From: Aquirufa ecclesiirivi
GTDB lineage: Bacteria > Bacteroidota > Bacteroidia > Cytophagales > Spirosomataceae
Direction of reading: 5' to 3'
Length of the DNA: 64,000 bases
Assembly: GCF_011250515.1 (NCBI RefSeq)
Contig: NZ_JAANOP010000006.1
Location: 124,001-188,000 of the forward strand
Part shown: one piece after another, positions 52,187 to 56,819 of the stretch
How positions within the stretch are numbered: position 1 is the stretch's first letter
How the letters are laid out: every line of letters starts with the position of its first letter
The notes under the pieces: generated by a model
Database searches by the model: none
Told to the model about the DNA's origin: nothing
What the model saw: only the letters and a program-made list of their open reading frames with translations
Translations under genes and position numbers: made by a program

Positions 52187-52210
52187 GTTAGAATGCAATA
52201 ATTGAAGATA

Positions 52211-55200
52211 ATGCCAAAGTCATACGTAAGAAAAATTTCTAGTCTCCTTATCGCCAATCGTGGTGAAATCGCTATTCGTATCATGCGTGCTGCTTCCGAG
52301 TTGGGGGTTCGGACCGTCGCTGTTTATACCTTTGAAGATCGGTATTCTCTACACCGTTATAAAGCGGATGAAGCTTATCAAATTGGTAAGGACGATGAGC
52401 CACTAAAACCCTATTTAGATTACGAAGGATTGATTGCCTTGTGTAAAAGCAAAAATATTGATGCGATACATCCGGGATATGGATTTTTATCAGAGAATGT
52501 CAATTTAGCTCGCAGATGTAGGGAAGAAGGAATTGTCTTTGTAGGGCCATCTCCAGAAGCCATGGATGCCTTAGGAGATAAGGTCGCAGCCAAAGTTGCA
52601 GCTATGAAGGCCAATGTTCCCATGATTCAAGATTCTAAAGGGGATTTAGCTGATTATTCTTTGGCTTTGTCCGAAGCCAAACGTATCGGATTTCCTGTGA
52701 TGGTGAAAGCAGCTGCTGGTGGAGGTGGACGTGGTATGCGGGTTGTACGTTTAGAAGAAGATTTAGAAAAAGCTTACAATGAAGCTCGAAATGAGGCAAA
52801 GAATGCTTTTGGAGATGAAACAATTTTCATTGAGAAATTCATTGATCAACCTAAACATATCGAGGTACAGTTACTAGGTGACCAACATGGGAATTTAGTA
52901 CACTTATATGAACGTGATTGCTCTGTACAGCGTCGATTCCAAAAAGTGGTTGAAATAGCTCCTTCTTTTGGTCTTAAAGATGAAACAAAAAAGAAATTAT
53001 ATCAATATGCTTTGTCGATTGGTAAAGCAGTTAATTACTACAATGCCGGGACGGTTGAGTTTTTAGTAGACCGTGATGAGAATATCTATTTCATTGAAGT
53101 TAACCCTCGTGTCCAAGTGGAGCACACGATTACAGAAGAGGTTACTGGAATAGACATTGTTCGTACTCAGATATTAATTGCCCAAAATTACAAACTGTCT
53201 GATCCAGGTATTTATATCCTGTCGCAGGAAGATATTCCATTAAGAGGATTTGCTATCCAGTGTCGTATTACAACTGAGGATCCAACGAATGGCTTCAAGC
53301 CCGACTTTGGTACTATCATTGCCTACCGTAATGCGGCAGGTTTTGGTATCCGTTTAGATGAAGGATCTTCTTATCCAGGAGTAAAAATTTCACCTTATTT
53401 TGATTCTATGTTGGTGAAGGTTTCTGCCAAAGGACGGACATTATTGGGTGCTGCCGAACGTTTAAATCGGGCATTAACAGAGTTTCGTATTCGTGGGGTG
53501 AAAACCAACATTCCTTTTTTAAGAAATGTGATTTCTCATCCAATCTTTCAAAATGGGCAGTGTACGGTTCAATTTATTGATTCGCATCCGGAATTATTTA
53601 AGTTTACCCCAACCAGAGACCGTTCTACCAAGGCCTTACGTTATTTAGGAGAGGTGATTGTCAATGGAAACCCTGACGTAAAGGTTAAACCTACGGCTAG
53701 TTTCAGGCCACCCATTATACCTTACTCGGATGCCTTGTCTGAATTTCCAAAAGGCAACAAGCAGTTGTTGATGGAATTGGGGCCCGAGAAATTTGCGAAG
53801 CATATTCGTGACACAAAACAGGTTTTGTTTACCGATACGACTTTCCGAGATGGACATCAGTCTTTATTAGCGACGCGTGTTCGAACACAAGATATGTTGG
53901 CCGTGGCATCTGGCTTTGCCAAATCTTTCCCTCAATTGTTTTCTATGGAAGTTTGGGGGGGAGCTACTTTCGACGTAGCTATGCGATTCTTACAAGAATC
54001 ACCTTGGAAGCGTTTGCAAGAATTCCGTCAGGCTATGCCAAACATGCTCCTTCAGATGTTGTTCCGCGGGTCTAATGCCGTAGGATATTCAGCTTATCCA
54101 GATAATTTGATTGAGAAGTTTGTGGAGAAATCCTCAGAAGCAGGTATCGATGTCTTTCGAATTTTTGATTCTTTGAACTGGGTGGAGGCAATGAAAGTGT
54201 CTATTCGTGCGGTGCGTGAAAGAACACCAGGTATTGCTGAGGCAGCTATTTGCTATACAGGTGATGTGTTCACCAACGAGAAGTATAATTTACAATATTA
54301 CCTGGATTTAGCTCGTCAGTTAGAAGATGAAGGAGCTCACATGTTGGCCATTAAAGATATGGCAGGTTTATTGAGACCTTTCCAAGCAGAGTTATTAGTT
54401 AAAGAACTTAAAAAAGCAGTGGATATTCCTATTCATTTGCACACGCATGATACGGCTTCCATTCAATCTGCTACTTATTTAAAAGCAATTGAAGCAGGAG
54501 TGGATGTGGTTGATGGAGCATTAGCTGCTATGTCGGGTCTTACTTCCCAGCCGAATTTAAATTCTTTGGTAGCAATGATGCAAGGTCAAGCCAACCAGGA
54601 TTTGCTTGATTTGGATGAGATGAATCAGTATTCCAATTATTGGGAAGCGGTAAGAACTTGGTATACTCCATTTGAATCTGAATTGAAAGCGGGTACTGCT
54701 GAGGTTTATGATAATGAGATTCCGGGTGGACAGTATACTAACTTACGTGGACAGGCTGTGGCTTTGGGTGTAGGAGATAAGTTTGAATTATTGAAAGATA
54801 ATTATACGGAAGCCAATAAGTTGTTTGGCGATATTGTTAAAGTTACACCTTCTTCCAAAGTAGTAGGAGATATGGCTATTTTTATGACAGCCAATTCGTT
54901 GACGGCAGAAGATGTGTATGCCAAAGGAGCTACACTTTCCTTCCCTGAGTCGGTGAAAGATTTCTTCAAAGGCGGATTAGGTCAGCCTTATCAAGGATTC
55001 CCTAAGCAATTGCAGGAAATCATTTTGAAAGGGGAGACCCCAATGGAAGGAAGGCCGAACGACCATTTGGCTCCCATTGACTTTGATAAGGATTTTGCGG
55101 CTTTTCAAGCGAAATTTCCAGATAATGAGGGTGGATTCTATGACTATTTGTCGTACATGATGTATCCGAAAGTATATGAGGATTACTACAAGAATCACCA

Positions 55201-56071
55201 AATTTTTGGCGATCTAACGGCCATGCCAACACCTGCTTTCTTCTATGGCTTAAAGCAAGATGAGGAAATCATGATTACCATTGAGCCGGGAAAAACGATC
55301 ATCGTGAAGTTCTTGCATATGTCAGAACCTGATGAATCTGGTTTGCGCAATGTGACTTTTGAATTGAATGGTCAAGCTCGTCGAATCAAGGTATTAGACA
55401 AAAACATAAAGGTAGAACGCCCACAACATGTGAAGGCTTCTCAAAAAGGAGATATTGGGGCGCCATTACAAGGTCGACTTAGCCGTATTTTGGTGAAACC
55501 AGGGGAAGAGGTGAAGAAAAATGCACCATTGTATGTGATTGAAGCCATGAAGATGGAATCCATTGTTTCGGCACCATTTGAAGGGATCATTGGTAATGTT
55601 GTATTGCATGAGGGAACCGTAGTAGAGCAAGAGGATTTAGTATTAACCTTAGAGGAGGCTAAATTACCAGAACCTAATGTGGAGGAATACTTATTTGTAT
55701 ATGGTACGCTTCGTCGTGATTGTGGTAATGACTTACATCGTTTATTGGCCAGAAATTCCGATTATGTGGGTATGGCAACGTATCAAGGTCGTATGTACCA
55801 AGTCGCGGATTATCCAGGTATTATAGCTTCTGATGATCAGAAAGATCAAGTAATCGGGGAGTTGTATTTATTATCTAATACCATTAAACTCCTGAGTGTC
55901 TTGGATGAGTATGAGGAATTTGATGCCGATAAGCCTGATAAGAGTTTGTTTGTTAGAACTAAAGTTCAGGTTCAATTGAATGGACAAGAGGTAGAAAGTT
56001 ATGCTTATTTGTACAACAGACCTACTCAAGCCAATACGGAAATTGTTTCAGGAGATTATTTAAAGAAGTAA
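52211..56071 (+). CDS. Pyruvate carboxylase with C-terminal gamma-glutamylcyclotransferase-like domain
   Basis: A 1,286-residue fusion starting at the ATG at 52211; an in-frame TTG lies at 52202. Residues 1 to about 460 are a biotin carboxylase with AAAGGGGRGMR. Residues about 535 to 1,070 are a carboxyltransferase with TDTTFRDGHQSLLATRVRT. A biotinyl domain follows with the biotin Lys1114 in EAMKMES. All the parts for ATP-dependent carboxylation of pyruvate to oxaloacetate are present. Standard proteins end at about 1,150, but this frame continues without a stop. Residues 1160-1286 are a GGCT/AIG2-like domain: YLFVYGTLRR, GMATYQGRMYQV and LDEYEEFD with the expected acidic residue (Glu1235). 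The role of the added domain is unknown. The next gene starts one base after the stop. Confidence 0.9.
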   Translation: MPKSYVRKISSLLIANRGEIAIRIMRAASELGVRTVAVYTFEDRYSLHRYKADEAYQIGKDDEPLKPYLDYEGLIALCKSKNIDAIHPGYGFLSENVNLARRCREEGIVFVGPSPEAMDALGDKVAAKVAAMKANVPMIQDSKGDLADYSLALSEAKRIGFPVMVKAAAGGGGRGMRVVRLEEDLEKAYNEARNEAKNAFGDETIFIEKFIDQPKHIEVQLLGDQHGNLVHLYERDCSVQRRFQKVVEIAPSFGLKDETKKKLYQYALSIGKAVNYYNAGTVEFLVDRDENIYFIEVNPRVQVEHTITEEVTGIDIVRTQILIAQNYKLSDPGIYILSQEDIPLRGFAIQCRITTEDPTNGFKPDFGTIIAYRNAAGFGIRLDEGSSYPGVKISPYFDSMLVKVSAKGRTLLGAAERLNRALTEFRIRGVKTNIPFLRNVISHPIFQNGQCTVQFIDSHPELFKFTPTRDRSTKALRYLGEVIVNGNPDVKVKPTASFRPPIIPYSDALSEFPKGNKQLLMELGPEKFAKHIRDTKQVLFTDTTFRDGHQSLLATRVRTQDMLAVASGFAKSFPQLFSMEVWGGATFDVAMRFLQESPWKRLQEFRQAMPNMLLQMLFRGSNAVGYSAYPDNLIEKFVEKSSEAGIDVFRIFDSLNWVEAMKVSIRAVRERTPGIAEAAICYTGDVFTNEKYNLQYYLDLARQLEDEGAHMLAIKDMAGLLRPFQAELLVKELKKAVDIPIHLHTHDTASIQSATYLKAIEAGVDVVDGALAAMSGLTSQPNLNSLVAMMQGQANQDLLDLDEMNQYSNYWEAVRTWYTPFESELKAGTAEVYDNEIPGGQYTNLRGQAVALGVGDKFELLKDNYTEANKLFGDIVKVTPSSKVVGDMAIFMTANSLTAEDVYAKGATLSFPESVKDFFKGGLGQPYQGFPKQLQEIILKGETPMEGRPNDHLAPIDFDKDFAAFQAKFPDNEGGFYDYLSYMMYPKVYEDYYKNHQIFGDLTAMPTPAFFYGLKQDEEIMITIEPGKTIIVKFLHMSEPDESGLRNVTFELNGQARRIKVLDKNIKVERPQHVKASQKGDIGAPLQGRLSRILVKPGEEVKKNAPLYVIEAMKMESIVSAPFEGIIGNVVLHEGTVVEQEDLVLTLEEAKLPEPNVEEYLFVYGTLRRDCGNDLHRLLARNSDYVGMATYQGRMYQVADYPGIIASDDQKDQVIGELYLLSNTIKLLSVLDEYEEFDADKPDKSLFVRTKVQVQLNGQEVESYAYLYNRPTQANTEIVSGDYLKK

Positions 56072-56072
56072 G

Positions 56073-56819
56073 ATGAAAGTATTCTTTGGTATTTTATTAT
56101 GCTTTGTTTCCTGTCATTTATGGGCACAAAAAGCCTTGCTGAAAGCACATGCTCACAATGATTATGAGCATTCAAAGCCTTTCTATGAAGCATTTAACTT
56201 AGGCTTTGGCTCCATCGAGGCAGATGTATATTCCATCAAAGGAGAATTGCTGGTAGCTCATGATGTGAAAGATGTGAAAGCAGATAGAACGTTAAAGACT
56301 TTGTACATTGATCCCATTGTAAAAGTTTTGTCGGAAAATAGACAAGGAAATTTTCATCAGTTTCTCATTGATTTTAAAACAAGTGCGGATTCTACTTTAC
56401 CCGTTTTGATAAAGGCCTTGGAACCTCATAAAGATTTGTTTATTCAAAGAGGACTAAGAATTGTGATATCAGGCAACCGGCCAGCGATTAAAAATTATGT
56501 CTTGTATCCCACTTGGATTACATTTGATGGTCGTTCTACAGAAATATATCCAGCAGGCTTAGGGAATCGTGTAGTTTTAGAAAGTGAATCTTTATACAAA
56601 TTTGGCGCATGGAGTGGTCAAGGTCCCATGAGTCCTGAATTGAAAGAGAAATTGAAAGCATATGTAGAAAGAGTACATGCCCAAGGCAGGAAATTACGCT
56701 TATGGGCTACACCTGATAGTTTGCTGGGTTATCAAACTTTGTATGATTTAGGAGTGGATTATATTGGAACTGACCATTTAAGTGAATTAGCCGATTTCTT
56801 GCGATTAGCTGTTAAGTAG
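56073..56819 (+). CDS. PI-PLC/glycerophosphodiester phosphodiesterase-like protein, secreted
   Basis: A 248-residue protein with a signal peptide (residues 1-18, ending LWAQ) and a TIM-barrel of the GDPD/PI-PLC type (AIM6-like). It has the catalytic-type residues KAHAHNDYEHSKPF and IEADVYSIKGELLVAHD. The C-terminal LRLWATPDSLLGYQTLYDLGVDYIGTDH matches GDPD proteins. It would cleave a phosphodiester outside the cytoplasm, but the substrate is unknown. Its start is one base after pyruvate carboxylase. Confidence 0.82.
   Translation: MKVFFGILLCFVSCHLWAQKALLKAHAHNDYEHSKPFYEAFNLGFGSIEADVYSIKGELLVAHDVKDVKADRTLKTLYIDPIVKVLSENRQGNFHQFLIDFKTSADSTLPVLIKALEPHKDLFIQRGLRIVISGNRPAIKNYVLYPTWITFDGRSTEIYPAGLGNRVVLESESLYKFGAWSGQGPMSPELKEKLKAYVERVHAQGRKLRLWATPDSLLGYQTLYDLGVDYIGTDHLSELADFLRLAVK

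Follow-up and report, generated by a model that had tools for sequence, protein, structure and literature searches.

The window analysed here, a stretch of 64,000 nucleotides recorded as Aquirufa ecclesiirivi and belonging to a 3.1 Mb genome whose relatives are Aquirufa, carries on its forward strand a long reading frame (52202–56071), uninterrupted by stops, in which a sequence-complete pyruvate carboxylase (PYC) continues into a GGACT/AIG2-like domain (Table 1). Read mechanically, the open reading frame begins with an in-frame TTG at 52202; the ATG at 52211, from which residues are numbered throughout, is the likely start because homologues begin with M(P/A)xxYV, and the stop codon occupies 56069–56071. 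The biotin carboxylase (BC), HMGL-like carboxyltransferase (CT), PYC_OADA and biotinyl domains all lie in this single chain and score above the curated cut-offs of Pfam and NCBIfam, with 1682 and 1621 bits for the PYC body against NF009554 and TIGR01235 (cut-offs 965 and 1114). This domain set and the biotin-lysine motif (E)AMKM with K1114, the predicted site of biotinylation, mark the body as a pyruvate carboxylase, with ATP- and bicarbonate-dependent carboxylation of pyruvate as its predicted activity. The tail matches Pfam PF06094 (GGACT, AIG2-like) with an E-value of 9.8e-22 and 78.2 bits (gathering score 22.8), and no NCBIfam model matched it in the scan of the protein. An earlier interpretation, made from the letters of the window and hereafter called the sequence-only reading, had proposed just such a join in one frame and free of frameshift, and its tail of about 127 residues at 55680–56071 agrees closely with the domain as delimited here (residues 1160–1286).

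Table 1. Features of the fused gene in the window
Feature	Position	Strand	Basis or remark
Fused gene, pyruvate carboxylase + GGACT-like domain	52211..56071	+	1286 aa from ATG 52211
Biotin carboxylase part: Biotin_carb_N, CPSase_L_D2, Biotin_carb_C	52235..53581	+	Pfam
Carboxyltransferase part (HMGL-like) + conserved carboxylase domain PYC_OADA	53816..55309	+	Pfam; start 53816 is the bound chosen for the PYC identity comparison
Biotin carrier domain (Biotin_lipoyl)	55454..55651	+	Pfam
Biotin site EAMKMES, Lys1114	55550-55552	+	sequence numbering
12-residue linker EEAKLPEPNVEE, residues 1148-1159	55652..55687	+	alignment of fused sequences
GGACT/AIG2-like domain, residues 1160-1286	55688..56068	+	Pfam PF06094, AlphaFold2, Foldseek
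YGTL loop Y1164-L1167, family signature	55700..55711	+	53/53 fused sequences
Glu1235, putative catalytic glutamate in LDEYE	55913..55915	+	aligned with Glu of mouse GGACT 1vkb

The body of the protein, BC-CT-BCCP with its EAMKM biotin motif, is that of the bacterial single-chain pyruvate carboxylase (NF009554/TIGR01235), but here the chain goes on, after a linker of 12 residues, into a GGACT-like end of 127 residues, whereas ten aligned unfused relatives (eight of the wider family and two from outside it) stop at the biotin carrier domain (BCCP), at the equivalent of residue ~1147–1150. Across all 53 aligned fused sequences the linker is free of gaps and its LPEP does not vary. This points to a constrained geometry, though not in itself to a function. 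Upstream of the fused gene lies pdxA in divergent orientation, and the next ATG downstream, at 56073, is one base past the fused stop; the gene that begins there is followed on the same strand by a xylose-isomerase-like TIM barrel and an MFS transporter. Its product (56073–56819, 248 aa) has no Pfam match and, by eye, a signal-like start and a HAHNDYEH motif.

The tail domain: fold, signature residues and selection

For the tail, AlphaFold2 predicts a confident GGCT fold (block pLDDT 81–95), and Foldseek agrees, as the sequence-only reading had anticipated. The best PDB matches are YkqA (2qik), the mouse protein 1vkb, PH0828 (1v30) and human GGACT (3jub, 3jud, 3juc), with E-values of 2.3e-7 to 3.8e-6 over these six entries and of 2.3e-7 to 2.0e-6 for the subset 2qik, 1vkb, 1v30 and 3jub; c4763, an Arabidopsis protein and a part of a Paulinella transit peptide (9i09) rank lower. 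Members of PF06094 (human and mouse GGACT, B. subtilis YkqA, E. coli YtfP, P. horikoshii PH0828) have the fold, the YGTL loop, the glutamate of the LDxYE motif and the C-terminal SGD motif in common with the tail, but those with solved structures are free proteins of 121–161 aa (285 aa for YkqA), whereas here the domain is the tail of a carboxylase and has invariant residues of its own.

In a profile alignment LDEYEE of the tail falls on LDDFED of mouse GGACT (1vkb); the catalytic glutamate of human GGACT is E82, and an E82Q mutant is named in the PDB title of 3jud. The acidic catalytic residue to which the sequence-only reading had pointed is kept: Glu1235, putatively catalytic, like the YGTL loop, is found in 53 of 53 fused sequences, and among stand-alone relatives the equivalent glutamate and the Y, G and L of YGTL are present in 56 of 56, with T in 98% and the LDxYE motif common to both groups. 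F1162, Y1164, G1165, L1167, P1202, G1216, L1231, D1232, Y1234, E1235, R1249, Y1266 and G1281 are all invariant in the 53 fused sequences and kept in at least 96% of the 56 stand-alone ones, and by its signature residues and predicted fold the tail domain is apparently intact. Ten other residues (G1172, L1175, H1176, N1182, Q1192, L1218, E1233, E1236, S1245 and F1247) are invariant in the fused set and occur in fewer than 35% of the stand-alone sequences, several of them adjoining the YGTL loop and the catalytic glutamate in sequence. They may reflect mere descent, because the fused set is one clade, or an altered substrate, or contact with PYC, so that the substrate or role of the tail may have changed, with shared ancestry contributing too.

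The tail domain is under purifying selection, with dN/dS values of 0 to 0.14 across 18 pairs, in a comparison where several dS values exceed 1 and from which the PYC value of the pair L112/L113 (dN 0.43), apparently out of register, was excluded. The GGACT domain diverges faster than PYC: the lone comparable unfused pair has identities of 85.6% for PYC and 47.3% for GGCT, five fused pairs have 81–85% and 50–58%, and, on that one unfused pair, tail divergence relative to PYC appears to resemble that of stand-alone copies. ChaC (PF04752) was found in none of 18 genomes (11 fused, the window's included, and 7 non-fused) nor among the Pfam matches of the protein, and AIG2_2 (PF13772) likewise in none of 18 (11 fused, 7 non-fused); since both are also absent from the non-fused genomes, their absence is not special to the fusion.

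Distribution and single origin of the fusion

Other carboxylases with this tail, for which the sequence-only reading had suggested a search, do exist. Of 38 genomes of the genus Aquirufa, 37 contain a single PF06094 match, always inside the PYC frame; six of these frames are short because, in the matching loci, they run off a contig. The remaining genome, G036, is 89% complete and lacks both a GGACT and a PYC-carrier match. With the biotin-carrier region as query against 200 genomes of the GTDB family, the 51 closest PYCs (79–100% identity; frames of 1280–1341 aa in 46 and of 501–1092 aa in five) are all fused, the tail being matched in the PYC frame for 43 and assigned to the other eight because their frames are as long as the frames at loci L106 and L109–L115, which hold it. 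A more distant set of 71 PYCs (56–66% identity, frames of 993–1192 aa) was called unfused by frame length, and the count of 51 plus 71 excludes matches weaker than about 1e-16 and a partial match in G199. This last (G199:C34:580387-580599), a stretch of 69 residues with 55% identity to the PYC carrier and an internal stop, is possibly a PYC remnant in genus g32, which otherwise has no close PYC in the list. PF06094 itself occurs in 193 of the 200 family genomes, so the activity would be near-universal in the family, and the fused genomes have exactly one match each at E up to 0.001 (55 of 55, 37 of them Aquirufa and 18 others).

Further out, 74 of the 187 genomes of an order sample have a PYC match; two are Aquirufa with the tail, and the rest have frames of up to 1199 aa, too short for it (a verdict that leaves aside four frames of 290–623 aa), except G279, whose PYC of 1242 aa ends at the BCCP and has no tail. 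Fifteen of 198 genomes in a phylum sample have a match, and all except the window's own measure 1150–1204 aa, again too short. A profile of the tail run against 390 order genomes gave long frames in 11 rows among the matches listed, all of the window's family, and frames of 129–231 aa in the other 54, and ten records of a plasmid collection, each below 60% identity, are all annotated as gamma-glutamylcyclotransferase family protein. The sole search beyond the phylum was a scan of named genomes with two fused-type peptide patterns, which could miss distant fusions; the best 80 matches were kept and gave 79 loci, 52 of them with the tail inside a PYC frame and 27 being other GGACT genes with no PYC in frame.

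By record name the fused isolates belong to Aquirufa, Sandaracinomonas, Arcicella, Pseudarcicella and Flectobacillus, with a further one labelled Cellulophaga, and Flectobacillaceae, a family of freshwater bacteria, comprises at NCBI the same five genera only. No unfused PYC was met in the genomes sampled from Flectobacillaceae, which are not a census of every member, and the fusion would seem to be a derived trait that the family has in common. The record 'Cellulophaga sp. BC115SP' (L104) carries a Flectobacillus-type gene and falls with Flectobacillus in the tree, and six MAGs named 'Spirosoma fluviale' (L085, L088, L094, L096, L099 and L100) carry Aquirufa-type genes, L088 being placed by tree and the others by identity; these names look wrong.

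For an assembly or annotation artefact, in which a lost stop codon joins two adjacent genes, no support was found; a single MAG locus, L109, has a PYC frame that is broken upstream of the tail. Against it stand 52 loci, from isolate and MAG assemblies alike, with the tail in the PYC frame and a gap-free junction. Independent genomes carry the same junction, with no stop or frameshift near it, which settles a doubt that the sequence-only reading had itself raised; the independent fused loci in genus and family genomes rule out a frameshift or assembly error, and we give this explanation practically no credence. The fusion is a new domain architecture built of known parts. No relevant title on the PYC-GGACT combination was found in open-licence PMC text, and the architecture may be mentioned in other literature or visible in domain databases.

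The fusion has a single origin: a GGACT tree of 71 rows and 134 columns unites 18 fused domains in one clade (support 98/93), and the trait changes once in 99% of 200 bootstrap trees. Among stand-alone copies of the wider family the closest, with moderate support, are from genera g27, g21 and g19, and these copies and a group from Ignavibacteria/Kapaibacterium are the sister groups of the fused clade (81/88 and 96/81). Four stand-alone copies from three sister genera (L147, L148, L150 and L151) lie in a block queE/ispG/yjbR/ggct, with queE and yjbR named by eye, and in L147 and L148 a TPR protein precedes ggct. A yjbR relative occurs in seven of 16 genomes of the genus Aquirufa; in the three Aquirufa stretches read, neither ispG, queE nor ggct stands beside it, so that no empty donor site was seen. 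A ggct gene beside a separate pyc, as a fusion of neighbours would suggest, was not seen: no PYC match lies in the flanks (up to 1.5 kb) of 22 stand-alone loci (L031–L052).

Possible roles of the tail

We favour, with moderate confidence, the reading that one ancestral fusion produced a bifunctional protein, a PYC joined to the lineage's sole GGACT-type enzyme, in which the tail is still catalytic and its amount and place are fixed to those of PYC. The gene for the sole GGACT-type (YtfP/YkqA/AIG2-like) enzyme would have been fused once, in the ancestor of Flectobacillaceae, onto the C-terminus of PYC. The PYC half would convert pyruvate to oxaloacetate by way of the biotin carrier, and the tail, placed beside that carrier on a short conserved linker, would have kept its own catalysis, probably the intramolecular cyclisation of a gamma-glutamyl amide or amine to 5-oxoproline and a free amine with Glu1235 as the acid-base residue. 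It would thereby do the housekeeping job of the stand-alone copies in sister genera, and the tether would mainly set its amount and place, at one tail per PYC chain; a regulatory circuit is not proven by this. Catalytic activity of the tail is an inference, as are its gamma-glutamyl substrate class, taken from the family name and the biochemistry of GGACT, and a benefit of tethering it to PYC.

The chemistry of the product bears on this reading. Recycling of 5-oxoproline would need a 5-oxoprolinase, and a PxpA-type match (PF03746) occurs in one of 11 fused genomes versus five of seven non-fused ones, an OplAH-type match (PF02538, frames of 1259–1294 aa) in four of 11 versus two of seven, and one or the other in five of 11 versus all seven; two of the seven non-fused genomes (G063 and G084) have no close PYC. 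Neither family was found in the remaining six fused genomes, the window's among them, where a 5-oxoproline product would thus be hard to recycle, and this absence weakens a simple story of 5-oxoproline salvage. The cells may make little 5-oxoproline, excrete it or open it in another way, or else the tail may catalyse a different reaction. The suggestion of the sequence-only reading that the tail might act on glutamyl-derived compounds or sense them, and so link anaplerosis with glutathione-like or amino-acid chemistry, is at this point a conjecture.

That the tail is a structural or passive passenger, acquired by chance, stabilising the protein or adding an interaction surface, with its catalysis dispensable, is in our judgement rather unlikely. 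The Foldseek match to 9i09, a GGCT-fold appendage that is part 2 of the Paulinella chromatophore transit peptide, speaks for it and counts against the favoured reading, as the GGCT fold can evidently be appended for another purpose. A PYC body mostly little changed by the fusion also fits a passenger. In a comparison of 12 fused with eight unfused family PYCs, identities over BC, CT, PYC_OADA and BCCP are 78.0, 77.7, 65.7 and 67.8% between fused and unfused sequences versus 81.1, 81.0, 69.3 and 71.3% among unfused ones, a difference of 3–4 points, and outside residues 461–535 there is little sign that the body was remodelled to match the tail. However, the active-site signature is invariant in 53 of 53 sequences although the tail domains of the fused loci are 48–96% identical to the window's, and in a family whose genomes nearly all have PF06094 the fused ones have no copy other than the tail.

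A regulatory sensor is likewise unlikely: here the GGCT pocket would bind glutamate or a compound derived from it, such as a gamma-glutamyl amide or 5-oxoproline, and alter carrier movement or PYC activity, so that anaplerosis would track the nitrogen or glutamate state of the cell. Bacterial PYC is under feedback control by acidic amino acids, which counts for such a role, as do the position of the domain after the mobile biotin carrier on a linker of constant length with invariant LPEP, the fused-only invariant residues near the YGTL loop and catalytic glutamate in sequence, and the presence of the fusion in all five genera. In residues 461–535, a segment that we labelled linker/allosteric, identity is also lower from fused to unfused PYCs (51.1%) than within the unfused set (58.7%), a drop of 7.6 points. 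The rest of the PYC body, with little extra change, argues against a sensor, and the invariant catalytic glutamate points to an enzyme rather than a pure sensor. AlphaFold2 models of BCCP plus tail and of CT to tail give a confident tail, but pLDDT is below 50 for BCCP and for over half of the CT region, and the docking of tail and carrier cannot be read from them because the carrier has low confidence in both. Still more speculative, and improbable in our estimate, is the idea that in Flectobacillaceae the tail sets the anaplerotic flux, its GGACT pocket either sensing or consuming a metabolite derived from glutamate and in this way controlling carrier movement, or editing a wrongly acylated carrier lysine; epsilon-(gamma-glutamyl)lysine is chemically close to biocytin. 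If true, it would be a new coupling of carbon anaplerosis to nitrogen metabolism within one polypeptide.

Under the favoured bifunctional reading, too, the architecture is of wider interest. PYC is a central and much studied enzyme, and one bacterial family in which every PYC seen has an extra domain behind the moving carrier would permit a direct test of a connection between gamma-glutamyl chemistry and anaplerosis. To our knowledge, bacterial proteins of the YtfP/YkqA type have no assigned physiological role, and a fixed PYC partner could be a clue to the role of these widespread proteins. The fusion also offers a marker in a single gene, which to date matches the five genera of Flectobacillaceae.

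Comparable appendages and neighbouring loci

Two other architectures resemble the fused PYC in part. A locus in the Flavobacteriaceae MAG Jejuia sp. UBA6058 (L129:6001-8070) encodes a protein of 690 aa that likewise joins GGACT to an unrelated enzyme, but there the domain is N-terminal and its partner a pseudouridine synthase of the RluA type (PF00849); in the tree its GGACT domain falls outside the fused-PYC clade. In the second, part 2 of the chromatophore transit peptide of Paulinella (PDB 9i09), a GGCT-like fold is also appended to another protein, but as a eukaryotic targeting extension (a role taken from the title of the PDB entry) with 19% identity; no paper linking this transit peptide with the GGCT fold was found by title.

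At L155 (3988-7520) about 2 kb separate a stand-alone GGACT gene from an accC-like gene, which shares 44% identity with the BC part of the fused protein in the window, is not a PYC and has, by eye, a possible accB beside it. In two unfused relatives (L159:6954-8813 and L161:6823-8361) the gene after pyc resembles, by eye, a SulP-type anion transporter, which perhaps supplies bicarbonate.
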